NCBI GenBank assembly: GCA_032622095.1 | Contig: CP136069.1 | Span: forward strand, 35,810,194 to 35,874,193 | Direction of reading: 5' to 3' | Length of the DNA: 64,000 bases | DNA from: Siphonodentalium dalli | Lineage: Eukaryota; Mollusca; Scaphopoda; Gadilida; Siphonodentaliidae | Part shown: in pieces, positions 1-64,000 of the stretch | Numbering within the stretch: position 1 is the stretch's first letter | Layout of the letters: every line of letters starts with the position of its first letter | Position numbers and translations under genes: made by a program | Notes under the pieces: model-generated | What the model was told of the DNA's origin: nothing | The model's database searches: none | The model's input: the letters and a program-made list of their open reading frames with translations, nothing else

Positions 1-20
1 CACGGTTTGGCTAATGAGCA

Positions 21-50
21 GGGGTTGGGAGTTGGATAATTGGGGTGGGG
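21..50 (+). other. G-rich tract with G-quadruplex potential (one per monomer)
   Basis: Four G-runs of at least three lie within 30 bases: GGGG, GGG, GGGG and GGGG, separated by loops of 2, 12 and 1 nt. The long middle loop contains another GG. The tract therefore misses the strict rule of loops up to 7 nt but meets long-loop or two-tetrad quadruplex models. It is present in essentially every monomer, always on the + strand, at 214-bp spacing. Common variants weaken or alter one run, such as GGGATGGGG, GGGGTAGGG, GGGGCGGGG and GGGTGGGG. Quadruplex formation is inferred, not shown. Confidence 0.6.
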
Positions 51-69
51 CAGGCTGTTTGAGGCCCCA
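46..69. other. Inverted repeat TGGGGC / GCCCCA, 12-nt loop
   Basis: TGGGGC at 46-51 is the exact reverse complement of GCCCCA at 64-69, leaving a 12-nt loop, so single strands can form a short GC-rich hairpin. It overlaps the end of the G-rich tract, so the two structures would compete. Several subtypes keep a stem with altered arms: GGGCC/GGCCC in monomers with TGGGCCAGG and TTTTAAGGCCCC, and GGGGCG/CGCCCC in monomers with GGGGCGGGG and GACGCCCC. Others break it (GAGGTCCC, GAGGCCTC, GAGTCCCC, GAGGCCCAAT), so strict conservation is not supported. Confidence 0.55.
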
Positions 70-176
70 TAAAATGCCCAGTATTTTTGAAAGCGACTGT
101 ACATTGCATCTGCACGGGCAAAATCACTTTAACGTTTTGGACACTTTTATCGTATCAATGTGCAAGCAGGCATGTT

Positions 177-182
177 TCGCGA
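177..182. other. TCGCGA palindrome (NruI site), one per monomer
   Basis: The perfect hexamer TCGCGA carries two CpGs and recurs in almost every monomer, so NruI digestion should give a 214-bp ladder. Losses are mainly CpG transitions to TCGCAA (for example near 18950, 22795, 26647, 29638, 31137 and 41843) or TCGTGA (near 29851, 31350, 34135 and 39700). Another loss is TCCCGA near 19585. Because the losses sit at matching positions of HOR copies, most were copied by amplification rather than arising independently. Confidence 0.85.
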
Positions 183-318
183 TAGGACGGCACATTCGGT
201 CGCAGGCCGGACCTCACGGTTTGGCTAATGAGCAGGGGTTGGGAGTTGGATAATTGGGGTGGGGCAGGCTGTTTGAGTCCCCATAAAATGCCCAGTATTT
301 TTGAAAGCGACTGTACTT

Positions 319-328
319 TGCATATGCA
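319..328. other. 10-bp palindrome TGCATATGCA specific to one subtype
   Basis: The common sequence is TGCATCTGCA. In the subtype at 228-441 and its relatives, one C-to-A change makes a perfect 10-bp palindrome containing CATATG. Examples are the monomers starting at 2999, 4487, 6629, 9403, 10462, 11949, 13007, 15352, 16423, 29473 and 30972. Many of these copies also have ACAGGC instead of ACGGGC. It marks a monomer lineage; no function is implied. Confidence 0.8.
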
Positions 329-530
329 CAGGCAAAATCCCTTTAACGTTTTGGACACTTTTATCGTATCAATGTGCAAGCAGGCATGTTTCGCGATAGG
401 ACGGCACATTCGGTCGCAGGCCGAACCTCACGGTTTGGCTAATGAGCAGGGGTTGGGAGTTGGATAATTGGGGTGGGGCAGGCTGTTTGAGGCCCCATAA
501 AATGCCCAGTATTTTTGAAAGTGACTGTAC

Positions 531-550
531 TTTGCATCTGCACGGGCAAA
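531..550. other. Inverted repeat TTTGC / GCAAA, 10-nt loop
   Basis: TTTGC (531-535) and GCAAA (546-550) are reverse complements separated by 10 nt. The dyad exists in all monomers with GTACTTTGC. It shortens to TTGC/GCAA in those with GTACATTGC, the most frequent dimorphism in the window. Weak hairpin potential only. Confidence 0.5.
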
Positions 551-2629
551 ATCCCGTTAACGTGTTGGACACTTTTATCGTATCAATGTGCAAGCAGGCA
601 TGTTTCGCGATAGGACGGCACATTCGGTCGCAGGCCGAACCTCACGGTTTGGCTAATGAGAAGGGGTTGGGAGATGGATAATTGGGGTGGGGCAGGCTGT
701 TTTGAGGCCCCATAAAATGCCCAGTATTTTTGAAAGCGACTGTACTTTGCATCTGCACGGGCAAAATCCCTTTAACGTTTTGGACACTTGTATCGTATCA
801 ATGTGCAAGCAGGCATGTTTCGCGATAGGACGGCACATTCGGTCGCAAGCCGGACCTCACGGTTTGGCTAATGAGCAGGGGTTGGGAGTTGGATAATTGG
901 GGTGGGGCAGGCTGTTTGAGGCCCCATAAAATGCCCAGTATTTTTGAAAGTGACTGTACTTTGCATCTGCACGGGCAAAATCCCTTTAAGGTTTTGGACA
1001 CTTTTATCGTATCAATGTGCAAGCAGGCATGTTTCGCGATAGGACGGCACATTCTGTCGCAGGCCGGACCTCACTGTTTGGCTAATGAGCAGGGGTTGGG
1101 AGTTGGATAATTGGGGTGGGGCAGGCTGTTTGAGGCCCCATAAAATGCCCATTATTATTGAAAGCGACTGTACATTGCATCTGCACGGGCAAAATCCCTT
1201 TAACGTTTTGGACACTTTTATCGTATCAATGTGCAAGCAGGCATGTTTCGCGATAGGATGGCACATTCGGTCGCAGGCCGAACCTCACGGTTTGGCTAAT
1301 GAGCAGGGGTTGGGAGTTGGATAATTGGGGTGTGGCAGGCTGTTTGAGGCCCCATAAAATGCCCAGTATTTTTGAAAGTGACTGTACTTTGCATCTGCAC
1401 GGGCAAAATCCCTTTAAGGTTTTGGACACTTTTATCGTATCAATGTGCAAGCAGGCATGTTTCGCGATAGGACGGCACATTCTGTCGCAGGCTGGACCTC
1501 ACTGTTTGGCTAATGAGCAGGGGTTGGGAGTTGGATAATTGGGGTGGGGCAGGCTGTTTGAGGCCCCATAAAATGCCCATTATTATTGAAAGCGACTGTA
1601 CATTGCATCTGCACGGGCAAAATCCCTTTAACGTTTTGGACACTTTTATCGTATCAATGTGCAAGCAGGCATGTTTCGCGATAGGATGGCACATTCGGTC
1701 GCAGGCCGAACCTCGCGATTTGGCTAATGAGCAGGGGTTGGGAGTTGGATAATTGGGGTGGGGAAGGCTGTTTGAGGCCCCATAAAATGCCCAGTATTTT
1801 TGAAAGCGACTGTACTTTGCATCTGCACGGGCAAAATCCCTTTAAGGTTTTGGACACTTTTATCGTATCAATGTGCAGGCAGGCATGTTTCGCGATAGGA
1901 TGGCACATTCGGTCGAAGGCCGAACCTCACGGTTTGGCTAGGAGCAGGGGTTGGGAGTTGGATAATTGGGGTGGGGCAGGCTGTTTGAGGTCCCATAACA
2001 TGCCCAGTATTTTTGAAAGCGACTGTACTTTGCATCTGCACGGGAAAAATCCCTTTAACGTTTTGGACACTTTTATCATATCAATGTGCAATCAGGCATG
2101 TTTCGCGATAGGACGGCACATTCGGTCGCAGGCCGAACCTCACGGTTTGGCTAATGAGCAGGGGTTGGGAGTTGGATAATTGGGGTGGGGCAGGCTGTTT
2201 GAGGCCTCATAAAATGCCCAGTATTTTTGAAAGCGACTGTACTTTGCATCTGCACAGGCAAAATCCCTTTAACGTTTTGGACACTTTTATCGTATCAATG
2301 TGCAAGCAGGCATGTTTCGCGATAGGACGGCACATTCGGTCGCAGGCCGAACCTCACGGTTTGGCTAATGAGCAGGGGTTGGGAGTTGGATAATTGGGGT
2401 GGGGCAGGCTGTTTGAGGCCTCATAAAATGCCCAGTATTTTTGAAAGCGACTGTACTTTGCATCTGCACGGGAAAAATCCCTTTAACGTTTTGGACACTT
2501 TTATCGTATCAATGTGCAAGCAGGCATGTTTCGCGATAGGACGGCATATTCGGTCGCAGGCCGGACCTCACTGTTTGGCTAATGAGCAGGGGTTGGGAGT
2601 TGGATAATTGGGGTGGGGCAGGCTGTTTG

Positions 2630-2640
2630 AGGCCCCAGTA
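2630..2640. repeat. 11-bp deletion defining a 203-bp monomer subtype
   Basis: The common CCCCATAAAATGCCCAGTA becomes CCCCAGTA, removing 11 bp between two CCCA copies, so replication slippage or microhomology deletion is likely. The same allele occurs in the monomers starting at 2582, 3641, 8986, 10045, 11532, 12591 and 14935. It is absent right of about 15.1 kb, so it is a marker of the left region only. Confidence 0.9.
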
Positions 2641-4272
2641 TTTTTGAAAGCGACTGTACTTTGCATTTGCACCGGCAAAATCCCTTTAACGTTTTGGACA
2701 CTTGTATCGTATCAATGTGCAAGCAGGCATGTTTCGCGATAGGACGGCACATTCGGTCGCAGGCCGGACATCACGGTTTGGCTAATGAGCAGGGGTTGGG
2801 AGTTGGATAATTGGGGTGGGGCAGGCTGTTTGAGGCCCCATAAAATGCCCAGTATTTTTGAAAGCGACTGTACATTGCATCTGCACGGGCAAAATCACTT
2901 TAACGTTTTGGACACTTTTATCGTATCAATGTGCAAGCAGGCATGTTTCGCGATAGGACGGCACATTCGGTCGCAGGCCGGACCTCACGGTTTGGCTAAT
3001 GAGCAGGGGTTGGGAGTTGGATAATTGGGGTGGGGCAGGCTGTTTGAGGCCCCATAAAATGCCCAGTATTTTTGAAAGCGACTGTACTTTGCATATGCAC
3101 AGGCAAAATCCCTTTAACGTTTTGGACACTTTTATCGTATCAATGTGCAAGCAGGCATGTTTCGCGATAGGACGGCACATTCGGTCGCAGGCCGAACCTC
3201 ACGGTTTGGCTAATGAGCAGGGGTTGGGAGTTGGATAATTGGGGTGGGGCAGGCTGTTTGAGGCCTCATAAAATGCCCAGTATTTTTGAAAGCGACTGTA
3301 CTTTGCATCTGCACAGGCAAAATCCCTTTAACGTTTTGGACACTTTTATCGTATCAATGTGCAAGCAGGCATGTTTCGCGATAGGACGGCACATTCGGTC
3401 GCAGGCCGAACCTCACGGTTTGGCTAATGAGCAGGGGTTGGGAGTTGGATAATTGGGGTGGGGCAGGCTGTTTGAGGCCTCATAAAATGCCCAGTATTTT
3501 TGAAAGCGACTGTACTTTGCATCTGCACGGGAAAAATCCCTTTAACGTTTTGGACACTTTTATCGTATCAATGTGCAAGCAGGCATGTTTCGCGATAGGA
3601 CGGCATATTCGGTCGCAGGCCGGACCTCACTGTTTGGCTAATGAGCAGGGGTTGGGAGTTGGATAATTGGGGTGGGGCAGGCTGTTTGAGGCCCCAGTAT
3701 TTTTGAAAGCGACTGTACTTTGCATTTGCACGGGCAAAATCCCTTTAACGTTTTGGACACTTGTATCGTATCAATGTGCAAGCAGGCATGTTTCGCGATA
3801 GGACGGCACATTCGGTCGCAGGCCGGACATCACGGTTTGGCTAATGAGCAGGGGTTGGGAGTTGGATAATTGGGGTGGGGCAGGCTGTTTGAGGCCCCAT
3901 AAAATGCCCAGTATTTTTGAAAGCGACTGTACATTGCATCTGCACGGGCAAAATCCCTTTGACGTTTTGGACACTTTTATCGTATCAATGTGCAAGCAGG
4001 CATGTTTCGCGATAGGACGGCACATTCGGTCGCAGGCCGGACCTCACGGTTTGGCTAATGAGCAGGGGTTGGGGGAGTTGGATAATTGGGGTGGGGCAGG
4101 CTGTTTGAGGCCCCATAAAATGCCAGTATTTTTGAAAGCGACTGTACTTTGCATCTGCACGGGCAAAATCTCTTTAACGTTTTGGACACTTTTATCGTAT
4201 CAATGTACACGCAGGCATGTTTCGCGATAGGACGGCACATTCGGTCGCAGGCCGAACATCACGGTTTGGCTA

Positions 4273-6414
4273 ATGAGCAGGGGTTGGGAGTTGGATAATT
4301 GGGGTGGGGCAGGCTGTTTGAGGCCCCATAAAATCCCCAGTATTTTTGAAAGCGACTGTACATTGCATCTGCACGGGCAAAATCACTTTAACGTTTTGGA
4401 CACTTTTATCGTATCAATGTGCAAGCAGGCATGTTTCGCGATAGGACGGCACATTCGGTCGCAGGCCGGACCTCACGGTTTGGCTAATGAGCAGGGGTTG
4501 GGAGTTGGATAATTGGGGTGGGGCAGGCTGTTTGAGTCCCCATAAAATGCCCAGTATTTTTGAAAGCGACTGTACTTTGCATATGCACAGGCAAAATCCC
4601 TTTAACGTTTTGGACACTTTTATCGTATCAATGTGCAAGCAGGCATGTTTCGCGATAGGACGGCACATTCGGTCGCAGGCCGAACCTCACGGTTTGGCTA
4701 ATGAGCAGGGGTTGGGAGTTGGATAATTGGGGTGGGGCAGGCTGTTTGAGGCCCCATAAAATGCCCAGTATTTTTGAAAGTGACTGTACTTTGCATCTGC
4801 ACGGGCAAAATCCCTTTAACGTGTTGGACACTTTTATCGTATCAATGTGCAAGCAGGCATGTTTCGCGATAGGACGGCACATTCGGTCGCAGGCCGAACC
4901 TCACGGTTTGGCTAATGAGAAGGGGTTGGGAGATGGATAATTGGGGTGGGGCAGGCTGTTTTGAGGCCCCATAAAATGCCCAGTATTTTTGAAAGCGACT
5001 GTACTTTGCATCTGCACGGGCAAAATCCCTTTAACGTTTTGGACACTTGTATCGTATCAATGTGCAAGCAGGCATGTTTCGCGATAGGACGGCACATTCG
5101 GTCGCAAGCCGGACCTCACGGTTTGGCTAATGAGCAGGGGTTGGGAGTTGGATAATTGGGGTGGGGCAGGCTGTTTGAGGCCCCATAAAATGCCCAGTAT
5201 TTTTGAAAGTGACTGTACTTTGCATCTGCACGGGCAAAATCCCTTTAAGGTTTTGGACACTTTTATCGTATCAATGTGCAAGCAGGCATGTTTCGCGATA
5301 GGACGGCACATTCTGTCGCAGGCCGGACCTCACTGTTTGGCTAATGAGCAGGGGTTGGGAGTTGGATAATTGGGGTGGGGCAGGCTGTTTGAGGCCCCAT
5401 AAAATGCCCATTATTATTGAAAGCGACTGTACATTGCATCTGCACGGGCAAAATCCCTTTAACGTTTTGGACACTTTTATCGTATCAATGTGCAAGCAGG
5501 CATGTTTCGCGATAGGATGGCACATTCGGTCGCAGGCCGAACCTCACGGTTTGGCTAATGAGCAGGGGTTGGGAGTTGGATAATTGGGGTGGGGCAGGCT
5601 GTTTGAGGCCCCATAAAATGCCCAGTATTTTTGAAAGTGACTGTACTTTGCATCTGCACGGGCAAAATCCCTTTAAGGTTTTGGACACTTTTATCGTATC
5701 AATGTGCAAGCAGGCATGTTTCGCGATAGGACGGCACATTCTGTCGCAGGCCGGACCTCACTGTTTGGCTAATGAGCAGGGGTTGGGAGTTGGATAATTG
5801 GGGTGGGGCAGGCTGTTTGAGGCCCCATAAAATGCCCATTATTATTGAAAGCGACTGTACATTGCATCTGCACGGGCAAAATCCCTTTAACGTTTTGGAC
5901 ACTTTTATCGTATCAATGTGCAAGCAGGCATGTTTCGCGATAGGATGGCACATTCGGTCGCAGGCCGAACCTCGCGATTTGGCTAATGAGCAGGGGTTGG
6001 GAGTTGGATAATTGGGGTGGGGAAGGCTGTTTGAGGCCCCATAAAATGCCCAGTATTTTTGAAAGCGACTGTACATTGCATCTGCACGGGCAAAATCCCT
6101 TTGACGTTTTGGACACTTTTATCGTATCAATGTGCAAGCAGGCATGTTTCGCGATAGGACGGCACATTCGGTCGCAGGCCGGACCTCACGGTTTGGCTAA
6201 TGAGCAGGGGTTGGGGGAGTTGGATAATTGGGGTGGGGCAGGCTGTTTGAGGCCCCATAAAATGCCAGTATTTTTGAAAGCGACTGTACTTTGCATCTGC
6301 ACGGGCAAAATCTCTTTAACGTTTTGGACACTTTTATCGTATCAATGTACACGCAGGCATGTTTCGCGATAGGACGGCACATTCGGTCGCAGGCCGAACA
6401 TCACGGTTTGGCTA
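4273..6414. repeat. HOR unit 2, 10 monomers, 2,142 bp, deletion derivative of unit 1
   Basis: Monomers 4273 to 5772 match 14 to 1513 in order and subtype. The monomer at 5986 is a hybrid, and 6200 matches 4058 with the same extra GG (GGGGGAGTTGG) and the same missing C (AAAATGCCAG). The length difference from unit 1 (4,259 - 2,142 = 2,117 bp) equals the distance between the two parental monomers at 1727 and 3844. A single recombination between those two monomers explains the shorter unit. Confidence 0.88.
5986..6199. repeat. Hybrid monomer: 5' as in 1727, 3' as in 3844
   Basis: The 5' part carries the rare GGGGAAGG (A at 6023) seen in the monomer at 1727. The 3' part carries GTACATTGC (A at 6075), CTTTGACG and the GGGGGAGTT boundary of the monomer at 3844. 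The switch therefore lies between 6023 and 6075. The deleted interval equals the spacing of the parents, as expected for in-register unequal exchange or intra-array deletion. Confidence 0.85.
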
Positions 6415-8341
6415 ATGAGCAGGGGTTGGGAGTTGGATAATTGGGGTGGGGCAGGCTGTTTGAGGCCCCATAAAATGCCCAGTATTTTTGAAAGCGACTG
6501 TACATTGCATCTGCACGGGCAAAATCAATTTAACGTTTTGGACACTTTTATCGTATCAATGTGCAAGCAGGCATGTTTCGCGATAGGACGGCACATTCGG
6601 TCGCAGGCCGGACCTCACGGTTTGGCTAATGAGCAGGGGTTGGGAGTTGGATAATTGGGGTGGGGCAGGCTGTTTGAGTCCCCATAAAATGCCCAGTATT
6701 TTTGAAAGCGACTGTACTTTGCATATGCACAGGCAAAATCCCTTTAACGTTTTGGACACTTTTATCGTATCAATGTGCAAGCAGGCATGTTTCGCGATAG
6801 GACGGCACATTCGGTCGCAGGCCGAACCTCACGGTTTGGCTAATGAGCAGGGGTTGGGAGTTGGATAATTGGGGTGGGGCAGGCTGTTTGAGGCCCCATA
6901 AAATGCCCAGTATTTTTGAAAGTGACTGTACTTTGCATCTGCACGGGCAAAATCCCTTTAACGTGTTGGACACTTTTATCGTATCAATGTGCAAGCAGGC
7001 ATGTTTCGCGATAGGACGGCACATTCGGTCGCAGGCCGAACCTCACGGTTTGGCTAATGAGAAGGGGTTGGGAGATGGATAATTGGGGTGGGGCAGGCTG
7101 TTTTGAGGCCCCATAAAATGCCCAGTATTTTTGAAAGCGACTGTACTTTGCATCTGCACGGGCAAAATCCCTTTAACGTTTTGGACACTTGTATCGTATC
7201 AATGTGCAAGCAGGCATGTTTCGCGATAGGACGGCACATTCGGTCGCAAGCCGGACCTCACGGTTTGGCTAATGAGCAGGGGTTGGGAGTTGGATAATTG
7301 GGGTGGGGCAGGCTGTTTGAGGCCCCATAAAATGCCCAGTATTTTTGAAAGTGACTGTACTTTGCATCTGCACGGGCAAAATCCCTTTAAGGTTTTGGAC
7401 ACTTTTATCGTATCAATGTGCAAGCAGGCATGTTTCGCGATAGGACGGCACATTCTGTCGCAGGCCGGACCTCACTGTTTGGCTAATGAGCAGGGGTTGG
7501 GAGTTGGATAATTGGGGTGGGGCAGGCTGTTTGAGGCCCCATAAAATGCCCATTATTATTGAAAGCGACTGTACATTGCATCTGCACGGGCAAAATCCCT
7601 TTAACGTTTTGGACACTTTTATCGTATCAATGTGCAAGCAGGCATGTTTCGCGATAGGATGGCACATTCGGTCGCAGGCCGAACCTCACGGTTTGGCTAA
7701 TGAGCAGGGGTTGGGAGTTGGATAATTGGGGTGGGGCAGGCTGTTTGAGGCCCCATAAAATGCCCAGTATTTTTGAAAGTGACTGTACTTTGCATCTGCA
7801 CGGGCAAAATCACTTTAAGGTTTTGGACACTTTTATCGTATCAATGTGCAAGCAGGCATGTTTCGCGATAGGACGGCACATTCTGTCGCAGGCCGGACCT
7901 CACTGTTTGGCTAATGAGCAGGGGTTGGGAGTTGGATAATTGGGGTGGGGCAGGCTGTTTGAGGCCCCATAAAATGCCCATTATTATTGAAAGCGACTGT
8001 ACATTGCATCTGCACGGGCAAAATCCCTTTAACGTTTTGGACACTTTTATCGTATCAATGTGCAAGCAGGCATGTTTCGCGATAGGATGGCACATTCGGT
8101 CGCAGGCCGAACCTCGCGATTTGGCTAATGAGCAGGGGTTGGGAGTTGGATAATTGGGGTGGGGAAGGCTGTTTGAGGCCCCATAAAATGCCCAGTATTT
8201 TTGAAAGCGACTGTACTTTGCATCTGCACGGGCAAAATCCCTTTAAGGTTTTGGACACTTTTTATCGTATCAATGTGCAGGCAGGCATGTTTCGCGATAG
8301 GATGGCACATTCGGTCGCAGGCCGAACCTCACGGTTTGGCT
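6415..8341. repeat. HOR unit 3, first nine monomers of the left-region unit
   Basis: Monomers 6415, 6629, 6843, 7057, 7272, 7486, 7700, 7914 and 8128 repeat the order of 4273-5985 at an offset of 2,142 bp and of 14 onward at 6,401 bp. Small private differences exist, for example AATCAATTT near 6525, AATCACTTTAAGG near 7810 and an extra T near 8260. Like unit 1, this copy continues into the CCATAACATG monomer at about 8342, so it was not affected by the deletion in unit 2. Confidence 0.82.
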
Positions 8342-10889
8342 AGGAGCAGGGGTTGGGAGTTGGATAATTGGGGGTGGGGCAGGCTGTTTGAGGTCCCATA
8401 ACATGCCCAGTATTTTTGAAAGCGACTGTACTTTGCATCTGCACGGGAAAAATCCCTTTAACGTTTTGGACACTTTTATCATATCAATGTGCAATCAGGC
8501 ATGTTTCGCGATAGGACGGCACATTCGGTCGCAGGCCGAACCTCACGGTGTGGCTAATGAGCAGGGGTTGGGAGTTGGATAATTGGGGGTGGGGCAGGCT
8601 GTTTGAGGCCTCATAAAATGCCCAGTATTTTTGAAAGCGACTGTACTTTGCATCTGCACAGGCAAAATCCCTTTAACGTTTTGGACACTTTTATCGTATC
8701 AATGTGCAAGCAGGCATGTTTCGCGATAGGACGGCACATTCGGTCGCAGGCCGAACCTCACGGTTTGGCTAATGAGCAGGGGTTGGGAGTTGGATAATTG
8801 GGGTGGGGCAGGCTGTTTGAGGCCTCATAAAATGCCCAGTATTTTTGAAAGCGACTGTACTTTGCATCTGCACGGGAAAAATCCCTTTAACGTTTTGGAC
8901 ACTTTTATCGTATCAATGTGCAAGCAGGCATGTTTCGCGATAGGACGGCATATTCGGTCGCAGGCCGGACCTCACTGTTTGGCTAATGAGCAGGGGTTGG
9001 GAGTTGGATAATTGGGGTGGGGCAAGCTGTTTGAGGCCCCAGTATTTTTGAAAGCGACTGTACTTTGCATTTGCACGGGCAAAATCCCTTTAACGTTTTG
9101 GACACTTGTATCGTATCAATGTGCAAGCAGGCATGTTTCGCGATAGGACGGCACATTCGGTCGCAGGCCGGACATCACGGTTTGGCTAATGAGCAGGGGT
9201 TGGGAGTTGGATAATTGGGGTGGGGCAGGCTGTTTGAGGCCCCATAAAATGCCCAGTATTTTTGAAAGCGACTGTACATTGCATCTGCACGGGCAAAATC
9301 ACTTTAACGTTTTGGACACTTTTATCGTATCAATGTGCAAGCAGGCATGTTTCGCGATAGGACGGCACATTCGGTCGCAGGCCGGACCTCACGGTTTGGC
9401 TAATGAGCAGGGGTTGGGAGTTGGATAATTGGGGTGGGGCAGGCTGTTTGAGGCCCCATAAAATGCCCAGTATTTTTGAAAGCGACTGTACTTTGCATAT
9501 GCACAGGCAAAATCCCTTTAACGTTTTGGACACTTTTATCGTATCAATGTGCAAGCAGGCATGTTTCGCGATAGGACGGCACATTCGGTCGCAGGCCGAA
9601 CCTCACGGTTTGGCTAATGAGCAGGGGTTGGGAGTTGGATAATTGGGGTGGGGCAGGCTGTTTGAGGCCTCATAAAATGCTCAGTATTTTTGAAAGCGAC
9701 TGTACTTTGCATCTGCACAGGCAAAATCCCTTTAACGTTTTGGACACTTTTATCGTATCAATGTGCAAGCAGGCATGTTTCGCGATAGGACGGCACATTC
9801 GGTCGCAGGCCGAACCTCACGGTTTGGCTAATGAGCAGGGGTTGGGAGTTGGATAATTGGGGTGGGGCAGGCTGTTTGAGGCCTCATAAAATGCCCAGTA
9901 TTTTTGAAAGCGACTGTACTTTGCATCTGCACGGGAAAAATCCCTTTAACGTTTTGGACACTTTTATCGTATCAATGTGCAAGCAGGCATGTTTCGCGAT
10001 AGGACGGCATATTCGGTCGCAGGCCGGACCTCACTGTTTGGCTAATGAGCAGGGGTTGGGAGTTGGATAATTGGGGTGGGGCAGGCTGTTTGAGGCCCCA
10101 GTATTTTTGAAAGCGACTGTACTTTGCATTTGCACGGGCAAAATCCCTTTAACGTTTTGGACACTTGTATCGTATCAATGTGCAAGCAGGCATGTTTCGC
10201 GATAGGACGGCACATTCGGTCGCAGGCCGGACATCACGGTTTGGCTAATGAGCAGGGGTTGGGAGTTGGATAATTGGGGTGGGGCAGGCTGTTTGAGGCC
10301 CCATAAAATGCCCAGTATTTTTGAAAGCGACTGTACATTGCATCTGCACGGGCAAAATCACTTTAACGTTTTGGACACTTTTATCGTATCAATGTGCAAG
10401 CAGGCATGTTTCGCGATAGGACGGCACATTCGGTCGCAGGCCGGACCTCACGGTTTGGCTAATGAGCAGGGGTTGGGAGTTGGATAATTGGGGTGGGGCA
10501 GGCTGTTTGAGGCCCCATAAAATGCCCAGTATTTTTGAAAGCGACTGTACTTTGCATATGCACAGGCCAAATCCCTTTAACGTTTTGGACACTTTTATCG
10601 TATCAATGTGCAAGCAGGCATGTTTCGCGATAGGACGGCACATTCGGTCGCAGGCCGAACCTCACGGTTTGGCTAATGAGCAGGGGTTGGGAGTTGGATA
10701 ATTGGGGTGGGGCAGGCTGTTTGAGGCCCCATAAAATGCCCAGTATTTTTGAAAGTGACTGTACTTTGCATCTGCACGGGCAAAATCCCTTTAACGTGAT
10801 GGACACTTTTATCGTATCAATGTGCAAGCAGGCATGTTTCGCGATAGGACGGCACATTCGGTCGCAGGCCGAACCTCACGGTTTGGCTA
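8342..10889. repeat. HOR, 12 monomers, about 2,548 bp (copy 1)
   Basis: Monomer starts are about 8342, 8557, 8772, 8986, 9189, 9403, 9617, 9831, 10045, 10248, 10462 and 10676. The unit has two 203-bp monomers (8986, 10045) and two monomers with GAGGCCTCATAA in each half. Two single-G insertions (GGGGGTGGGG near 8370 and 8587) make it slightly longer than its neighbour. The same order is found at 10890-13434 at an offset of 2,546 bp: ten 214-bp monomers plus two 203-bp monomers equal 2,546. Confidence 0.85.
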
Positions 10890-11103
10890 ATGAGAAGGGG
10901 TTGGGAGATGGATAATTGGGGTGGGGCAGGCTGTTTGAGGTCCCATAACATGCCCAGTATTTTTGAAAGCGACTGTACTTTGCATCTGCACGGGAAAAAT
11001 CCCTTTAACGTTTTGGACACTTTTATCATATCAATGTGCAATCAGGCATGTTTCGCGATAGGACGGCACATTCGGTCGCAGGCCGAACCTCACGGTGTGG
11101 CTA
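10890..11103. repeat. Hybrid monomer at the start of copy 2
   Basis: The 5' end has GAGAAGG and GAGATGG (A at 10908), as in the subtype at 656 and 13435. From about 10937 it lacks that subtype's extra T and has GAGGTCCCATAACATG, as in the monomers at about 1941 and 8342. The switch lies between 10908 and about 10937, inside the G-rich tract region. It marks the junction that produced the 12-mer duplication. Confidence 0.8.
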
Positions 11104-54700: not shown

Positions 54701-54964
54701 GCGATTGGACGGCACATTCGGTCGCAGGCCGAACCTCACGGTTTGGCTAATGAGCAGGGGTTGGGAGTTGGATAATTGGGGTGGGGCAGGCTGTTTTGAG
54801 GCCCAATAAAATGCCCAGTATTTTTGAAAGTGACTGTACTTTGCATCTGCACGGGCAAAATCCCTTTAACGTTTTGGACACTTGTATCGTATCAATGTGC
54901 AAGCAGGCATGTTTCGCGATAGGACGGCATATTCGGTCGCAGGCCGGACCCCACGGTTTGGCTA
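48757..54964. repeat. Mosaic segment duplicated at 60.1-64.0 kb
   Basis: Subtypes from several domains are interspersed. 48359-49390 resembles 60140-61170 (offset about 11,781 bp), and 51098-51292 matches 61378-61572 (10,280 bp). 51539-52181 matches 61605-62247 (10,066 bp), and 52610-54133 matches 62462-63985 (9,852 bp). Characteristic monomers include AACCTTTTGGAC with GGGTGGGGC (48971, 51112), GCAGTCATG (51539), GAGGCCGCAT with GGCAATATCC (51753), AAAGAGACT (about 51967) and CTGCCCGGGC (53467). The second copy is shorter by whole monomers. Confidence 0.78.
50684..51111. repeat. Two monomers with an unusual cluster of private variants
   Basis: Within about 205 bp there are many changes seen nowhere else or rarely: GTATATTTG (A at 50755), ACGTATTGG (50806), CGTTTCAATG (about 50824), GGACGACAC (50860), ATTCTTTCG (about 50870), GTTCGATAATT (50919) and CCATATAATG (about 50956). 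Typical monomers have one or two private changes. The related monomers at 60324 and 60538 lack most of them. Confidence 0.7.
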
Positions 54965-56250
54965 ATGAGCAGGGGTTGGGAGTTGGATAATTGGGGTGGG
55001 GCAGGCTGTTTGAGGCCCCATAAAATGCCCAGTATTTTTGAAAGCGACTGTACATTGCATCTGCACGGGCAAAATCCCTTTAACGTTTTGGACACTTTTA
55101 TCGTATCAATGTGCAAGCAGGCATGTTTCGCGATAGGATGGCACATTCGGTCGCAGGCCGGACCTCACGGTTTGGCTAATGAGCAGGGGTTGGGAGTTGG
55201 ATAATTGGGGTGGGGCAGGCTGTTTGAGGCCCAATAAAATGCCCAGTATTTTTGAAAGCGACTGTACTTTGCATCTGCACGGGCAAAATCCCTTTAACGT
55301 TTTGGACACTTTTATCGTATCAATGTGCAAGCAGGCATGTTTCGCGATAAGACGGCACATTCGGTCGCAGGCCGGACCTCACGGTTTGGCTAATGAGCAG
55401 GGGTTGGAAGTTGGATAATTGGGGTGGGGCAGGCTGTTTTGAGGCCCAATAAAATGCCCAGTATTTTTGAAAGCGACTGTACTTTGCATATGCACGGGCA
55501 AAATCCCTTTAACGTTTTGGACACTTGTATCGTATCAATGTGCAAGCAGGCATGTTTCGCGATAGGACGGCATATTCGGTCGCAGGCCGGACCCCACGGT
55601 TTGGCTAATGAGCAGGGGTTGGGAGTTGGATAATTGGGGTGGGGCAGGCTGTTTGAGACCCCATAAAATGCCCAGTATTTTTGAAAGCGACTGTACTTTG
55701 CATCTGCACGGGCAAAATCCCTTTAACGATTTTGACACTTTTATCGTATCAATGTGCAAGCAGGCATGTTTCGCGATAGGACGGCACATTCGGTCGCAGG
55801 CCGAACCTCACGGTTTGGCTAATGAGCAGGGGTTGGGAGTTGGATAATTGGGGTGGGGCAGGCTGTTTTGAGGCCCCATAAAATGCCCAGTATTTTTGAA
55901 AGCGACTGTACTTTGCATCTGCACGGGCAAAATCCCTTTAACGTTTTGGACACTTGTATCGTATAAATGTGCAAGCAGGCATGTTTCGCGATAGGACGGC
56001 ACATTCGGTCGCAGGCCGGACCTCACGGTTTGGCTAATGAGCAGGGGTTGGGAGTTGGATAATTGGGGTGGGGCAGGCTGTTTGAGGCCCCATAAAATGC
56101 CCAGTATTTTTGAAAGCGACTGTACATTGCATCTGAACGGGCAAAATCCCTTTAACGTTTTGGACACTTGTATCGTATCAATGTGCAAGCAGGCATGTTT
56201 CGCGATAGGACGGCATATTCGGTCGCAGGCCGGACCCCACGGTTTGGCTA
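54965..56250. repeat. Young HOR, 6 monomers, 1,286 bp (copy 1)
   Basis: The order is: GTACATTGC with GGATGG (54965), CGATAAGACGG (55179), extra T with GAGGCCCAATAAAA, GGCATATTC and GGACCCCACGG (55393), AACGATTTTGAC (55608), extra T with CGTATAAATG (55822), and CTGAACGGGC with GGACCCCACGG (56037). Four 214-bp and two 215-bp monomers equal 1,286 bp. The same six recur at 56251 and 58395 with very few differences. Confidence 0.88.
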
Positions 56251-58394
56251 ATGAGCAGGGGTTGGGAGTTGGATAATTGGGGTGGGGCAGGCTGTTTGAG
56301 GCCCCATAAAATGCCCAGTATTTTTGAAAGCGACTGTACATTGCATCTGCACGGGCAAAATCCCTTTAACGTTTTGGACACTTTTATCGTATCAATGTGC
56401 AAGCAGGCATGTTTCGCGATAGGATGGCACATTCGGTCGCAGGCCGGACCTCACGGTTTGGCTAATGAGCAGGGGTTGGGAGTTGGATAATTGGGGTGGG
56501 GCAGGCTGTTTGAGGCCCCATAAAATGCCCAGTATTTTTGAAAGCGACTGTACTTTGCATCTGCACGGGCAAAATCCCTTTAACGTTTTGGACACTTTTA
56601 TCGTATCAATGTGCAAGCAGGCATGTTTCGCGATAAGACGGCACATTCGGTCGCAGGCCGGACCTCACGGTTTGGCTAATGAGCAGGGGTTGGGAGTTGG
56701 ATAATTGGGGTGGGGCAGGCTGTTTTGAGGCCCAATAAAATGCCCAGTATTTTTGAAAGCGACTGTACTTTGCATCTGCACGGGCAAAATCCCTTTAACG
56801 TTTTGGACACTTGTATCGTATCAATGTGCAAGCAGGCATGTTTCGCGATAGGACGGCATATTCGGTCGCAGGCCGGACCCCACGGTTTGGCTAATGAGCA
56901 GGGGTTGGGAGTTGGATAATTGGGGTGGGGCAGGCTGTTTGAGGCCCCATAAAATGCCCAGTATTTTTGAAAGCGACTGTACTTTGCATCTGCACGGGCA
57001 AAATCCCTTTAACGATTTTGACACTTTTATCGTATCAATGTGCAAGCAGGCATGTTTCGCGATAGGACGGCACATTCGGTCGCAGGCCGAACCTCACGGT
57101 TTGGCTAATGAGCAGGGGTTGGGAGTTGGATAATTGGGGTGGGGCAGGCTGTTTTGAGGCCCCATAAAATGCCCAGTATTTTTGAAAGCGACTGTACTTT
57201 GCATCTGCACGGGCAAAATCCCTTTAACGTTTTGGACACTTGTATCGTATAAATGTGCAAGCAGGCATGTTTCGCGATAGGACGGCACATTCGGTCGCAG
57301 GCCGGACCTCACGGTTTGGCTAATGAGCAGGGGTTGGGAGTTGGATAATTGGGGTGGGGCAGGCTGTTTGAGGCCCCATAAAATGCCCAGTATTTTTGAA
57401 AGCGACTGTACATTGCATCTGAACGGGCAAAATCCCTTTAACGTTTTGGACACTTTTATCGTATCAATGTGCAAGCAGGCATGTTTCGCGATAAGACGGC
57501 ACATTCGGTCGCAGGCCGGACCTCACGGTTTGGCTAATGAGCAGGGGTTGGAAGTTGGATAATTGGGGTGGGGCAGGCTGTTTTGAGGCCCAATAAAATG
57601 CCCAGTATTTTTGAAAGCGACTGTACTTTGCATCTGCACGGGCAAAATCCCTTTAACGTTTTGGACACTTGTATCGTATCAATGTGCAAGCAGGCATGTT
57701 TCGCGATAGGACGGCATATTCGGTCGCAGGCCGGACCCCACGGTTTGGCTAATGAGCAGGGGTTGGGAGTTGGATAATTGGGGTGGGGCAGGCTGTTTGA
57801 GACCCCATAAAATGCCCAGTATTTTTGAAAGCGACTGTACTTTGCATCTGCACGGGCAAAATCCCTTTAACGATTTTGACACTTTTATCGTATCAATGTG
57901 CAAGCAGGCATGTTTCGCGATAGGACGGCACATTCGGTCGCAGGCCGAACCTCACGGTTTGGCTAATGAGCAGGGGTTGGGAGTTGGATAATTGGGGTGG
58001 GGCAGGCTGTTTTGAGGCCCCATAAAATGCCCAGTATTTTTGAAAGCGACTGTACTTTGCATCTGCACGGGCAAAATCCCTTTAACGTTTTGGACACTTG
58101 TATCGTATAAATGTGCAAGCAGGCATGTTTCGCGATAGGACGGCACATTCGGTCGCAGGCCGGACCTCACGGTTTGGCTAATGAGCAGGGGTTGGGAGTT
58201 GGATAATTGGGGTGGGGCAGGCTGTTTGAGGCCCCATAAAATGCCCAGTATTTTTGAAAGCGACTGTACATTGCATCTGAACGGGCAAAATCCCTTTAAC
58301 GTTTTGGACACTTGTATCGTATCAATGTGCAAGCAGGCATGTTTCGCGATAGGACGGCATATTCGGTCGCAGGCCGGACCCCACGGTTTGGCTA
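56251..58394. repeat. Young HOR, compound unit of 10 monomers, 2,144 bp
   Basis: The first five monomers repeat the 6-mer at an offset of 1,286 bp. The sixth (57323) is a hybrid, followed by types 3, 4, 5 and 6 again (57537, 57752, 57966, 58181). The unit therefore reads as a full 6-mer fused to a 4-mer (1,286 + 858 = 2,144 bp). Private differences such as GAGACCCC appear in 55608 and 57752 but not in 56894 or 59038, which suggests exchange between non-adjacent units. Confidence 0.87.
57323..57536. repeat. Hybrid monomer, type 6 / type 2 of the young HOR
   Basis: CTGAACGGGC (A at 57422) comes from type 6. CACTTTTATC (T at 57456) and CGATAAGACGG come from type 2. The switch lies between 57423 and 57456. 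Joining type 6 to type 2 skips the intervening type 1 and gives the 858-bp 4-mer. Confidence 0.85.
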
Positions 58395-59680
58395 ATGAGC
58401 AGGGGTTGGGAGTTGGATAATTGGGGTGGGGCAGGCTGTTTGAGGCCCCATAAAATGCCCAGTATTTTTGAAAGCGACTGTACATTGCATCTGCACGGGC
58501 AAAATCCCTTTAACGTTTTGGACACTTTTATCGTATCAATGTGCAAGCAGGCATGTTTCGCGATAGGATGGCACATTCGGTCGCAGGCCGGACCTCACGG
58601 TTTGGCTAATGAGCAGGGGTTGGGAGTTGGATAATTGGGGTGGGGCAGGCTGTTTGAGGCCCCATAAAATGCCCAGTATTTTTGAAAGCGACTGTACTTT
58701 GCATCTGCACGGGCAAAATCCCTTTAACGTTTTGGACACTTTTATCGTATCAATGTGCAAGCAGGCATGTTTCGCGATAAGACGGCACATTCGGTCGCAG
58801 GCCGGACCTCACGGTTTGGCTAATGAGCAGGGGTTGGGAGTTGGATAATTGGGGTGGGGCAGGCTGTTTTGAGGCCCAATAAAATGCCCAGTATTTTTGA
58901 AAGCGACTGTACTTTGCATCTGCACGGGCAAAATCCCTTTAACGTTTTGGACACTTGTATCGTATCAATGTGCAAGCAGGCATGTTTCGCGATAGGACGG
59001 CATATTCGGTCGCAGGCCGGACCCCACGGTTTGGCTAATGAGCAGGGGTTGGGAGTTGGATAATTGGGGTGGGGCAGGCTGTTTGAGGCCCCATAAAATG
59101 CCCAGTATTTTTGAAAGCGACTGTACTTTGCATCTGCACGGGCAAAATCCCTTTAACGATTTTGACACTTTTATCGTATCAATGTGCAAGCAGGCATGTT
59201 TCGCGATAGGACGGCACATTCGGTCGCAGGCCGAACCTCACGGTTTGGCTAATGAGCAGGGGTTGGGAGTTGGATAATTGGGGTGGGGCAGGCTGTTTTG
59301 AGGCCCCATAAAATGCCCAGTATTTTTGAAAGCGACTGTACTTTGCATCTGCACGGGCAAAATCCCTTTAACGTTTTGGACACTTGTATCGTATAAATGT
59401 GCAAGCAGGCATGTTTCGCGATAGGACGGCACATTCGGTCGCAGGCCGGACCTCACGGTTTGGCTAATGAGCAGGGGTTGGGAGTTGGATAATTGGGGTG
59501 GGGCAGGCTGTTTGAGGCCCCATAAAATGCCCAGTATTTTTGAAAGCGACTGTACATTGCATCTGAACGGGCAAAATCCCTTTAACGTTTTGGACACTTT
59601 TATCGTATCAATGTGCAAGCAGGCATGTTTCGCGATAGGATGGCACATTCGGTCGCAGGCCGGACCTCACGGTTTGGCTA
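58395..59680. repeat. Young HOR, 6 monomers, 1,286 bp (copy 3)
   Basis: Types 1 to 5 are intact (58395, 58609, 58823, 59038, 59252), matching 56251-57322 at an offset of 2,144 bp. The sixth monomer (59467) is a hybrid. The next monomer, 59681, is a type-2-like GAGGCCCAATAAAA variant without CGATAAGACGG. Near identity with the earlier copies indicates very recent amplification. Confidence 0.86.
59467..59680. repeat. Hybrid monomer, type 6 / type 1 of the young HOR
   Basis: CTGAACGGGC (A at 59566) is from type 6. CACTTTTATC (T at 59600) and GGATGGCAC are from type 1. The switch lies between 59567 and 59600, the same interval of the monomer as in the hybrid at 57323. The marker spacing alone sets this window, so it does not by itself show a hotspot. 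Confidence 0.82.
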
Positions 59681-60108
59681 ATGAGCAGGGGTTGGGAGTT
59701 GGATAATTGGGGTGGGGCAGGCTGTTTGAGGCCCAATAAAATGCCCAGTATTTTTGAAAGCGACTGTACTTTGCATCTGCACGGGCAAAATCCCTTTAAC
59801 GTTTTGGACACTTTTATCGTATCAATGTGCAAGCAGGCATGTTTCGCGATAGGACGGCACATTCGGTCGCAGGCCGGACCTCACGGTTTGGCTAATGAGC
59901 AGGGGTTGGGAGTTGGATAATTGGGGTGGGGCAAACTATTTGAGGCCCCATAAAATGCCTAGTATTTTTGAAAGCGACTGTACTTTGCATCTGCACGGGC
60001 AAAATCCCTTTAACGATTTTGACACTTTTATCGTATCAATGTGCAAGCAGGCATGTTTCGCGATAGGACGGCACATTCGGTCGCAGGCCGAACCTCACGG
60101 TTTGGCTA
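59681..60108. repeat. Two transitional monomers
   Basis: 59681 has GAGGCCCAATAAAA but otherwise common alleles. 59895 has the private GGGGCAAACTATTTGAGG and AACGATTTTGAC. They separate the young HOR from the duplicated right-end segment. Confidence 0.75.
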
Positions 60109-63100
60109 ATGAGCAGGGGTTGGGAGTTGGATAATTGGGGTGGGCCAGGCTGTTTTAAGGCCCCATAAAATGCCCAGTATTTTTGAAAGCGACTGTACTT
60201 TGCATCTGCACGGGCAAAATCCCTTTAACGTTTTGGACACTTGTATCGTATCAATGTGCAAGCAGGCATGTTTCGCGATAGGACGGCACATTCGGTCGCA
60301 GGCCGGACCTCACGGTTTGGCTAATGAGCAGGGGTTGGGAGTTGGATAATTGGGGTGGGGCAGGCTGTTTGAGGCCCCATAAAATGCCCAGTATTTTTGA
60401 AAGTGACTGTACTTTGCATCTGCACGGGCAAAATCCCATTAACGTTTTGGACACTTTTATCGTATCAATGTGCAAGCAGGCATGTTTCGCGATAGGACGG
60501 CACATTCTGTCGCAAGCCGGACCTCAGTGTTTGGCTAATGAGCAGGGGTTGGGAGTTGGATAATTGGGGTGGGGCAGGCTGTTTGAGGCCTCATAAAATG
60601 CCCAGTGTTTTTGAAAGCGACTGTACATTGCATCTGCACGGGCAAAATCCCTTTAACGTTTTGGACACTTTTATCGTATCAATGTGCAAGCAGGCATTTT
60701 CGCGATAGGATGGCACATTCGGTCGCAGGCCGGACCTCACGGTTTGGCTAATGAGCAGGGGTTGGGAGTTGGATAATTGGGTGGGGTAGGCTGTTTGAGG
60801 CCCCATAAAATGCCCAGTATTTTTGAAAGCGACTGTACTTTGCATCTGCACGGGCAAAATCCCTTTAACCTTTTGGACAATTTTATCGTAGCAATGTGCA
60901 AGCAGGCATGTTTCGCGATAGGACGGCACATTCGGTCGCAGGCCGGACCTCACGGTTTGGCTAATGAGCAGGGGTTGGGAGTTGGATAATTGGGGTGGGG
61001 CAGGCTGTTTGAGGCCCCATAAAATGCCTAGTATTTTTGAAAGCGACTGTACTTTGCATCTGCACGGGCAAAATCCCTTTAACGTTTTTGACACTTTTAT
61101 CGTATCAATGTGCAAGCAGGCATGTTTCGCGATAGGACGGCACATTCGGTCGCAGGCAGAACCTCACGGTTTGGCTAATGAGCAGGGGTTGGGAGTTGGA
61201 TAATTGGGGTGGGGCAGGCTGTTTGAGGCCCCATAAAATGCCCAGTATTTTTGAAAGCGACTGTACATTGCATCTGCACGGGCAAAATCCATTTAACGTT
61301 TTGGACACTTTTATCGTATCAATGTGCAAGCAGGCATGTTTCGCGATAGGATGGCACATTCGGTCGCAGGCCGGACCTCACGGTTTGGCTAATGAGCAGG
61401 GGTTGGGAGTTGGATAATTGGGTGGGGCAGGCTGTTTGAGGCCCCATATAATGCCCAGTATTTTTGAAAGCGACTGTACTTTGCATCTGCACGGGCAAAA
61501 TCCCTTTAACCTTTTGGACACTTTTATCGTATCAATGTGCAAGCAGGCATGTTTCGCGATAGGACGGCACATTCGGTCGCAGGCCGGACCTCACTGTTTG
61601 GCTAATGAGCAGGGGTTGGGAGTTGGATAATTGGGGTGGGGCAGGCTGTTTGAGGCCCCATAAAATGCCCAGTATTTTTGAAAGCGACTGTACATTGCAT
61701 CTGCACGGGCAAAATCCATTTAACGTTTTGGACACTTTTATCGTTTCAATGTGCAAGCAGTCATGTTTCGCGATAGGATGGCACATTCTGTCGCAGGCCG
61801 GACCTCACGGTTTGGCTAATGAGCAGGGGTTGGGAGTTGGATAATTGGGGTGGGGCAGGCTATTTGAGGCCGCATAAAATGCCTAGTATTTTTGAAAGCG
61901 ACTGTACTTTGCATCTGCACGGGCAATATCCCATTAACGTTTTTGACACTTTTATCGTATCAATGTGCAAGCAGGCATGTTTCGCGATAGGACGGCACAT
62001 TCGGTCGCAGGCCGAACCTCACGGTTTGGCTAATGAGCAGGGGTTGGGAGTTGGATAATTGGGGTGGGGCAGGCTGTTTTGAGGCCCCATAAAATGCCCA
62101 GTATTTTTGAAAGAGACTGTACTTTGCATCTGCCCGGGCAAAATCCCTTTAACGTTTTGGACACTTGTATCGTATCAATGTGCAAGCAGGCATGTTTCGC
62201 GATAGGACGGCATATTCGGTCGCAGGCCGGACCTCACGGTTTGGCTAATGAGCAGGGGTTGGCAGTTGGATAATTGGGGTGGGGCAGGCTGTTTGAGGCC
62301 CCATAAAATGCCCAGTATTTTTGAAAGCGACTGTACATTGCATCTGCACGGGCAAAATCCCTTTAACGTTTTGGACACTTTTATCGTATCAATGTGCAAG
62401 CAGGCATGTTTCGCGATAGGACGGCACATTCGGTCGCAGGCCGGACCTCACGGTTTGGCTAATGAGCAGGGGTTGGGAGTTGGATAATTGGGGTGGGGCA
62501 GGCTGTTTGAGGCCCCATAAAATGCCTAGTATTTTTGAAAGCGACTGTACTTTGCATCTGCACGGGCAAAATCCCTTTAACGATTTTGACACTTTTATCG
62601 TATCAATGTGCAAGCAGGCATGTTTCGCGATAGGACGGCACATTCGGTTGCAGGCCGAACCTCACGGTTTGGCTAATGAGCAGGGGTTGGGAGTTGGATA
62701 ATTGGGGTGGGCCAGGCTGTTTTAAGGCCCCATAAAATGCCCAGTATTTTTGAAAGCGACTGTACTTTGCATCTGCACGGGCAAAATCCCTTTAACGTTT
62801 TGGACACTTGTATTGTATCAATGTGCAAGCAGGCATGTTTCGCGATAGGACGGCACATTCGGTCGCAGGCCGGACCTCACGGTTTGGCTAATGAGCAGGG
62901 GTTGGGAGTTGGATAATTGGGGTGGGGCAGGCTGTTTGAGGCCCCATAAAAAGCCCAGTATTTTTGAAAGTGACTGTAGTTTGCATCTGCACGGGCAAAA
63001 TCCCATTAACGTTTTGGACACTTTTATCGTATCAATGTGCAAGCAGGCATGTTTCGCGATAGGACGGCACATTCTGTCGCAAGCCGGACCTCACTGTTTG

Positions 63101-64000
63101 GCTAATGAGCAGGGGTTGGGAGTTGGATAATTGGGGTGGGGCAGGCTGTTTGAGGCCCCATAAAATGCCCAGTGTTTTTGAAAGCGACTGTACATTGCAT
63201 CTGCACGGGCAAAATCCCTTTAACGTTTTGGACACTTTTATCGTATCAATGTGCAAGCAGGCATGTTTCGCGATAGGATGGCACATTCGGTCGCAGGCCG
63301 GACCTCACGGTTTGGCTAATGAGCAGGGGTTGGGAGTTGGATAATTGGGGTGGGGCAGGCTGTTTGAGGCCCCATAAAATGCCCAGTATTTTTGAAAGCG
63401 ACTGTACTTTGCATCTGCCCGGGCAAAATCCATTTAACGTTTTGGACACTTTTATCGTATCAATGTGCAAGTAGGCATGTTTCGCGATAGGACGGCACAT
63501 TCGGTCGCAGGCCGGACCTCACGGTTTGGCTAATGAGCAGGGGTTGGGAGTTGGATAATTGGGGTGGGGCAGGCTGTTTGAGGCCCATAAAATGCCCAGT
63601 ATTTTTGAAAGCGACTGTACTGTGCATCTGCACGGGCAAAATCCCTTTAACGTTTTGGACACTTTTATCGTATCAATGTGCAAGCAGGCATGTTTCGCGA
63701 TAGGACGGCACATTCGGTCGCCGGCCGGACCTCACGGTTTGGCTAATGAGCAGGGGTTGGGAGTTGGATAATTGGGGTGGGGCAGGCTGCTTGAGGCCCC
63801 ATAAAATGCCCAGTATTTTTGAAAGCGACTGTACTTTGCATCTGCACGGGCAAAATCCCTTTAACGTTTTGGACACTTTTATCGTATCAATGTGCAAGCA
63901 GGCATGTTTCGCGATAGGACGGCACATTCTGTCGCAGGCCGTACCTCACGGTTTGGCTAATGAGCAGGGGTTGGGAGTTGTATAATTGGGATGGGGCAGG
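60109..64000. repeat. Second copy of the 48-54 kb segment with internal losses
   Basis: Order and private alleles follow 48.3-54.2 kb, but the offset drops stepwise from about 11,781 to 10,280, 10,066 and finally 9,852 bp. Each drop is close to a whole number of monomers (7, 1, 1). From 62462 to the window end the match to 52610-54148 is almost exact, including CTGTAGTTTGC, CAGTGTTTTTG, CTGCCCGGGC, GTACTGTGC, GTCGCCGGCC, GGCTGCTTGAGG and GTTGTATAATTGGGATGG. Private changes include GCAGGCATTTTCGCG (missing base near 60697) and AAAAAGCCC near 62951. Confidence 0.83.
62248..62461. repeat. Probable hybrid monomer at the last offset change
   Basis: By position the 5' part corresponds to 52182 (GTACATTGC, A at 62337) and the 3' part to 52396 (GGACGGCAC, C at 62422). 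The offset falls from 10,066 to 9,852 bp here, a loss of one monomer. It lacks both the GGATGGTAC and CATAACATG alleles, as expected if the switch lies between 62337 and 62422. It also has a private GGCAGTTGG at its start. Confidence 0.65.

Follow-up and report, generated by a model that had tools for sequence, protein, structure and literature searches.

Higher-order repeats (HORs) of primate alpha satellite are built from distinct, diverged monomer types in a fixed order, and the unit is repeated many times. Their monomers are tens of per cent apart and the units occur in hundreds. CENP-B-binding satellites carry the CENP-B box. A centromeric satellite binds centromeric histone, and one common to the whole species would lie at a single site on each chromosome. 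Satellite arrays are prone to misassembly.

Three other systems are comparable. In the excerpt of PMC13081366 used here, the macro-dyad satellites TmSat1 and TmSat2 are placed at the likely (peri)centromeres of all Tribolium madens chromosomes, with highly conserved inversion sites. PcH-Sat of the limpet Patella caerulea is likewise an animal satellite DNA family, likened here by description only, and the title of the report suggests a Nin-SINE origin (PMC11121367). In oyster, short tandem arrays are borne by Helentrons, according to the excerpt of PMC7492417.

The window, i.e., the whole 64,000-bp stretch that was analysed, was fully covered by matches to a 214-bp monomer (64,000/64,000 bases), with no reverse-strand matches. 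The anchor sequence was counted 299 times on the forward strand and 0 times on the reverse strand, which confirms the earlier note's claim of a pure, one-orientation satellite of about 299 monomers. The dominant period was 214 bp. Of 298 units, 215 were 214 bp long, 47 were 215 bp, 26 were 213 bp, seven were 203 bp, two were 328 bp and one was 216 bp, and 192 of the 298 were distinct in sequence. The window contains 49.5% G+C and no N, and its consensus monomer has 50.5% G+C with 11 CpG. Long arrays in which a non-coding monomer is repeated head to tail are satellite DNA, and the 214-bp repeat is probably a new satellite family, although satellites of such kind are already known. Among the literature matches listed, none pointed to an already described 214-bp family; in the excerpt of PMC3018141, on human macrosatellites, "214 bp" occurs once. 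The features of the window were as follows.

1..64000, + strand: uninterrupted satellite array of 299 monomers, inside a composite domain of ~1.23 Mb (C9 34.837-36.066 Mb)
1..214, + strand: first monomer, which sets the phase used, starts CACGGTTTGGCTAATGAG and differs from the window consensus
1..6205, + strand: block duplication, lag 4,259 bp; 1-1946 copied at 99.1%
2569..15124, + strand: seven 203-bp units (11 bp below the norm) at 2569, 3628, 8973, 10032, 11519, 12578 and 14922
3691..8274, + strand: block duplication, lag 2,142 bp; 98.8%, ~2.1 copies
8560..12854, + strand: block duplications, lags 2,546, 1,487 and 1,059 bp
17533..24369, + strand: block duplications, lags 3,852, 2,354 and 1,498 bp; 98.8%, 98.0% and 98.3%
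26953..32198, + strand: block duplications, lags 1,068 and 1,499 bp; 98.0% and 98.7%, ~2.0 and 2.5 copies
31010..41851, + strand: block duplications, lags 2,784, 4,282, 1,498 and 2,998 bp; 98.5-98.9%
43223..49011, + strand: block duplications, lags 2,470 and 2,684 bp; holds two 328-bp units
45088 and 47772, + strand: the 328-bp units, each with an extra partial monomer and a local 119-bp period
54784..60144, + strand: block duplications, lags 1,286, 858 and 2,144 bp; 97.9-98.9%, up to ~2.5 copies

A constant orientation across the window would also suit an array coding for a repeated protein or a structured RNA, which we regard as extremely improbable. No stop-to-stop ORF of at least 250 aa was found. 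In a search of window positions 1-1300, no Rfam family reached the gathering score and only four weak WLE3 matches appeared, and the DNA fold of one monomer was no better than its shuffles (z 1.23).

Multi-monomer periods were evident. Blocks of seven monomers differing by 1.5% or less numbered 190, whereas shuffling the monomer order 200 times gave 0.045 on average and never more than 2. Blocks thus resemble each other more closely than single monomers do, to an extent that chance does not explain, and are HORs in the broad sense. Of the HOR periods reported earlier, twelve (4,259, 2,142, 2,546, 2,354, 1,498, 1,068, 1,499, 2,784, 2,470, 2,684, 1,286 and 858 bp) recurred at 97.9-99.1% over 1-3 kb; the 427-bp period did not hold up equally, being visible only as common 80-mers at 24-28 kb and staying below 98.5% over 1 kb. 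Longer lags also occur, e.g., 9,852 bp at 99.2% (span 52,224-54,148). The spacing of the seven 203-bp units agrees with the lags of 1,059 and 2,545/2,546 bp. The several long-period domains of the earlier note were borne out as domains; yet because each block occurs in only 1.27-2.54 copies (34 segments, lags up to 4,500), the long periods are paired block duplications and not long HOR arrays.

Collapse or chimeric joins in the assembly could change this block structure. That the long-period pattern is largely such a product, i.e., of collapse, mis-joins and false duplications, is nevertheless quite unlikely. The orientation flips described below might be joins, but the sampled sequences L001-L082 contained no N, three sequenced flips included. 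Moreover, block copies hold private differences (identity 97.7-99.1%), and separate samples on C9 and C2 showed differing block sets.

Monomer divergence was examined on 296 aligned units of the window, the two 328-bp units being excluded from the 298; for other loci, units outside 150-260 bp were excluded. Window monomers showed a mean pairwise identity of 96.2% (a difference of ~3.8%), and adjacent monomers showed the same 96.2%. Similarity was flat across lags 1-30, with no decay with distance. On average, window monomers were ~1.9% from the consensus. Tajima-like D was -2.37 in the window and was also negative in other C9 samples and C2 (-2.41, -1.80). This flat, low divergence is a star-like pattern, which points to a single recent burst followed by random block duplications. 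The C9 edge samples diverged by 1.3% (4 monomers) and 1.5% (24 monomers) against 1.9% in the window, and the outermost two C2 monomers ranked among the more diverged on C2 (2.8% and 2.3%).

Like primate alpha satellite HORs, the array consists of tandem, non-coding monomers in which period copies are more alike than neighbouring monomers. The comparison with alpha satellite in the earlier note holds as far as multi-monomer domains are concerned. It fails at the level of an alpha-satellite-like HOR array, since monomers here are only ~3.8% apart with no decay over lags 1-30, blocks reach the low copy numbers given above, and a neutral model yields a similar picture. The 214-bp array further differs from alpha satellite in showing no age layers and no exact CENP-B box, and in being absent from most contigs among the matches listed.

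The neutral model consisted of a burst plus random block duplication and deletion, with six settings in the main set and hand-tuned parameters. The best setting used 200 block duplications/deletions of up to 20 monomers and gamma site rates, in 8 runs. Observed values, with simulated ranges in brackets, were 188 (154-206) distinct monomers, 0.83 (0.81-0.94) HOR coverage, 32 (23-49) runs, 15 (13-19) lags, 3.0 (2.5-4.0) maximum copies, an adjacent/all ratio of 1.017 (0.97-1.03) and a variant count of 201 (200-258). The observed D of -2.371 fell just outside the eight simulated values (-2.48 to -2.38). Burst settings with even rates overshot the variant count (means 268-530).

Alternatively, the satellite could be old and kept in a steady state by unequal crossing-over, so that the present variation is an equilibrium. 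The plentiful block duplications would be compatible with this, and individual simulated runs of this kind got to D -2.10. Against it, all 24 settings tried (12 + 12) were either too diverse or short of variants and distinct monomers. When matched for diversity (pi 0.037), the model gave a mean D of -1.2, 83 variants and 52 distinct monomers, and the lowest mean D among the 24 settings was not below -1.64, versus -2.37 observed. The C9 edge samples were also not older. The steady-state models tried are a poor fit, while a neutral burst with block copying yields similar HOR-like runs, periods and copies; we consider an equilibrium array very unlikely. Changing "HOR domains" can thus form passively in an array with only ~4% monomer differences, and therefore such patches alone are no centromere signature.

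Variation along the monomer was uneven over all monomers (variance, p 0.005; quietest 20-bp stretch, p 0.0175). Per-site variation in the window and in other C9 monomers correlated at 0.26, a value reached in 0 of 2,000 permutations. Part of the monomer may therefore be under constraint. Conserved boxes were considered and rejected, the signal being weak and in part explained by lower mutation at A/T sites. Per position, CpG sites showed no excess of transitions (11 in 22 positions, against 47 in 86 at other C/G sites), so there is no CpG decay and a methylation imprint is rejected.

The assembly comprises nine contigs and 2.23 Gb. The satellite fills much of the C9 domain around the window, which also contains a 43-bp satellite and non-satellite islands. 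The other arrays among the matches listed were one of ~110 kb (C2) and one of 3.6 copies (C3), the latter adjoining an open reading frame. On these matches the family is confined to C2, C3 and C9 and is apparently not common to all nine chromosomes. The genome-wide count of 3,993 24-mers was roughly accounted for by the mapped arrays on C9 and C2. The consensus is common to C2 and C9, and common variants are private to each.

Orientation switched at least six times in the C9 domain by sampling, and three switches were sequenced. The large size of the domain, its changes of orientation and the additional satellite family recall TmSat1/TmSat2 as described in the excerpt of PMC13081366. In contrast to the conserved inversion sites reported there, the three sequenced C9 junctions lay at three differing monomer phases (120/79, 45/191 and 196/73), with no conserved inversion-site sequence among them. 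A fold-back origin of the flips was rejected, as the arms at two of the three junctions were 96.2-97.9% alike in the alignments listed, near the value for any two array stretches.

The array outer edges lay at phases 147 and 175 on C9, 51 and 186 on C3, and 1 at the left of C2, and no sequence common to the flanks was found at the tested boundaries. The short C3 copy outside the main arrays resembles the Helentron-borne arrays of oyster in the excerpt of PMC7492417, but the 214-bp edges differ from them in having no fixed phase or common flank where tested. Nothing here therefore indicates that a single mobile element carried the arrays. Among ten flank ORFs, Pfam gave one reverse transcriptase fragment above the cut-off, three sub-threshold matches and six without a match. 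A molluscan origin was considered because one ORF was Gly-Tyr-rich and secreted-looking; the mollusc haemocyanin domain had no match, and neither did its control.

Since divergence at the C9 edges, as sampled, does not exceed that of the window, D is strongly negative, and edge and inversion phases differ, a burst is favoured. Our main reading, held at a probability of about 0.75, is a new satellite family that amplified recently in a single burst, chiefly on chromosome 9, with later random block copying producing the "HOR" periods. A nearly uniform 214-bp array would have been laid down first, and its monomers would then each have accumulated the mutations now seen as ~1.9% from the consensus. 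Random duplication and deletion of blocks of several to ~20 monomers, as in the matching simulation, may have created the overlapping periods. Inversions with short overlaps and insertion of other repeats probably fragmented the C9 domain, leaving the observed junctions and islands. The small pieces found on C2 and C3 may have been transferred, e.g., during the repair of breaks or as circular DNA that reinserted.

Most probably the C9 block serves as heterochromatin, passive and non-coding. That it lies at the chromosome 9 centromere, or close to it, is suggested only tentatively. It is likewise possible, though doubtful, that the domain is a functional centromere or pericentromere, with the satellite as putative CENP-A-bearing DNA and the HOR patches as marks of centromere-specific homogenisation. 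A single satellite-rich domain on C9, the 43-bp satellite within it and internal orientation flips, as in the likely (peri)centromeres in the excerpt of PMC13081366, are consistent with this. On the other side, the family was on three of nine contigs among the matches listed, with the C3 copies beside an open reading frame. The exact CENP-B box was absent from both strands of the window; the best consensus match had two substitutions, a figure that carries no chance control. The HOR patches are compatible with the neutral model, a young core was not seen as the C9 edge samples were like the middle, and the searched island repeat, at C9:36,045,000, was dispersed over all nine contigs (best 40 of 3,593 candidates) rather than specific to the domain. 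Should the block prove to be the chromosome 9 centromere, it would show HOR formation at an early stage, as well as chromosome-specific centromere DNA. An evolutionarily new, chromosome-specific centromere from a single recent burst, at a stage preceding both old layers and true HOR arrays, with other chromosomes using different DNA, is unlikely; if true, one would see in nature how HOR domains start from random block copying.

A scorpion source was rejected, since TTAGG repeats, which scorpions carry, gave 0 matches and TTAGGG repeats gave 1,973 + 5,394.

The window was placed at G000:C9:35,810,194-35,874,193 in a genome assembly of 2.23 Gb and nine contigs (C1-C9). The description in the earlier note of a pure, one-orientation 214-bp satellite of about 299 monomers was confirmed. 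Monomer matches covered 64,000 of 64,000 bases, none in reverse, and an anchor word gave 299 matches on the plus strand and 0 on the minus strand. The main period was 214 bp. After cutting, 298 units were obtained, i.e., 215 of exactly 214 bp, with seven of 203 bp and two of 328 bp among the others; 192 of the 298 were distinct.

Seven-monomer blocks differing by at most 1.5% were found 190 times, whereas permuted monomer orders (n=200) gave no more than 2. The same note had divided the array into higher-order repeat (HOR) domains with different multi-monomer periods. All of its named periods recurred as lags between block copies, at 97.9-99.1% identity over 1-3 kb, except 427 bp, which was seen only as shared 80-mers. 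At lags of up to 4,500 bp, 34 segments were detected, each with 1.27 to 2.54 copies and 97.7-99.1% identity. The "HOR domains" of the window are thus block pairs, at times two and a half copies, with a block length of 858 to 4,496 bp. Longer lags also occurred, e.g., 9,852 bp with 99.2% identity across 1.9 kb. With lags of up to 12 kb and a 98.5% threshold, block copies spanned 89% of the window.

The mean identity of window monomers was 96.2%, and neighbours were no closer than distant monomers, since every lag of 1-30 monomers gave 96.1 to 96.5%. Window monomers differed by 3.2-4.1% from those sampled elsewhere on C9 and from those on C2 and C3, close to the difference among themselves (3.8%). 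Variants have a star-like spectrum, with a negative Tajima-like D in all three sets (window, -2.37; C9 samples outside it, -2.41; C2, -1.80). The distinct variants of the window were transversion-rich (119 transversions and 82 transitions), and CpG sites were not hypermutable. There was weak evidence that variation is low around monomer position 81.

Neutral histories were simulated from 296 identical monomers, which acquired mutations until their divergence was near that observed; in parallel, randomly chosen blocks were duplicated and others deleted. Steady-state models at matched diversity (pi 0.037) gave variant counts near 83 (201 observed) and about 52 distinct monomers (188 observed). 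Their mean D was about -1.2, and single runs with other settings reached -2.10. A steady-state origin is therefore a poor fit, with too few variants and distinct monomers at this diversity. Ten burst settings with even site rates, three runs each, gave the right direction of D and too many variants (means 268-530 against 201). Six more burst settings were simulated with eight runs each, the parameters being hand-tuned. The best setting had 200 events, each affecting up to 20 monomers, and uneven site rates. Its simulated ranges enclosed what was observed for distinct monomers, number of variants, HOR coverage, HOR-like runs, lags, and copies; the observed D of -2.371 fell just outside the simulated -2.48 to -2.38. 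On this basis, no process particular to centromeres has to be invoked for the changing periods.

The window held neither a stop-to-stop frame of at least 250 aa nor an exact CENP-B box. No RNA family was found in its first 1,300 bases, and the monomer showed no special fold. The simplest reading is that the array is putative passive satellite heterochromatin. The 214-bp domain could host the centromere of chromosome 9 on the general grounds of its size and single location, although we hold this somewhat doubtful.

By sampling, the family extended on C9 from 34.837 to 36.066 Mb, with an interruption of about 0.4 Mb (35.125-35.5 Mb) holding a different, 43-bp satellite. This satellite was located at G000:C9:35,197,305 to about 35.30 Mb (sampled loci L011 and L053-L056). 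A 22-base word of it gave 825 matches, every one on the plus strand, and the 100 places listed were all on C9. At least six orientation switches were found, and the domain was also interrupted by smaller islands:

C9 near 34.92, 35.55, 35.62, 35.77, and 36.045 Mb, smaller islands
C9 near 34.997 Mb, orientation switch
C9 near 35.102 Mb, orientation switch
C9 between 35.710 and 35.730 Mb, orientation switch
C9 between 35.8005 Mb and the window start, orientation switch
C9 near 35.975 Mb, orientation switch
C9 between about 35.975 and 36.000 Mb, orientation switch

The fourth switch means that the window begins less than 10 kb from an orientation change. Three sequenced flips had three different monomer phases, with match overlaps of 5, 3, and 2 bases, and mirror-copy arms were not found at the two flips tested. 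One repeat was sampled in the island near 36.045 Mb, and close matches to it lay on all nine contigs.

On C2, the family occupied about 219.264-219.281 and 219.292-219.385 Mb, on the plus strand in every sample holding it. Near the left edge of this array (sampled locus L041:3630-9623), shortened units and, in part, a 105-bp period were seen within a period of about 1,615 bp. C3 carried 3.6 copies of the monomer at about 235.967 Mb. This short array (L042:6414-7190) lies upstream of an ORF (L042:7525-7926), at a distance of about 335 bp. The small protein encoded there would have a signal-like start and Gly-Tyr-rich repeats, and it gave no Pfam match; 68-bp minisatellites flank the array on both sides (L042:1-980 and 8930-9998).

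A 24-base monomer word with at most one mismatch gave 3,117 forward and 876 reverse matches genome-wide, their places being known only among the matches listed, and 289 matches for the 299 monomers of the window. Two exact copies, in the sampled loci L024 and L025, lay outside the matches listed. The arrays were estimated at about 750 kb on C9 and 110 kb on C2, which roughly explains the word count, so no large array would be expected elsewhere in the nine contigs.

The C2 and C9 consensus was the same, with no C2 variant above 14 of 34 monomers and no listed window variant above 80 of 296. Common C9 variants occurred in at most two of the 34 C2 monomers, and common C2 variants were nearly absent from C9. 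These private variants suggest that each chromosome was homogenised separately since the arrays parted. Outer array edges started at unrelated monomer phases, and no shared flank was found among the edges compared, which argues against carriage by one mobile element. Mean divergence from consensus was 1.3% at the C9 left edge (n=4), 1.5% at the C9 right edge (n=24), and 1.7% at the C2 left edge (n=34), where the two outermost monomers were at 2.8 and 2.3%. As the window mean was 1.9%, no clear older edge layer was indicated.

TTAGGG repeats were plentiful in the genome, and neither TTAGG nor TTTAGGG repeats were found, a combination that speaks against an arthropod or typical plant source. Among the matches listed, a long TTAGGG tract began at G000:C1:276,277,252, about 0.6 Mb inside the C1 end. 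By eye, the sampled contig ends (L031-L034) were without telomere repeat, and a repeat was common to the first bases of C1 (L031) and the last bases of C9 (L034). Histone genes (at least 150 matches) lay in tandem clusters on several contigs, including C8, C5, and C9 (about 142.9-144.3 Mb).
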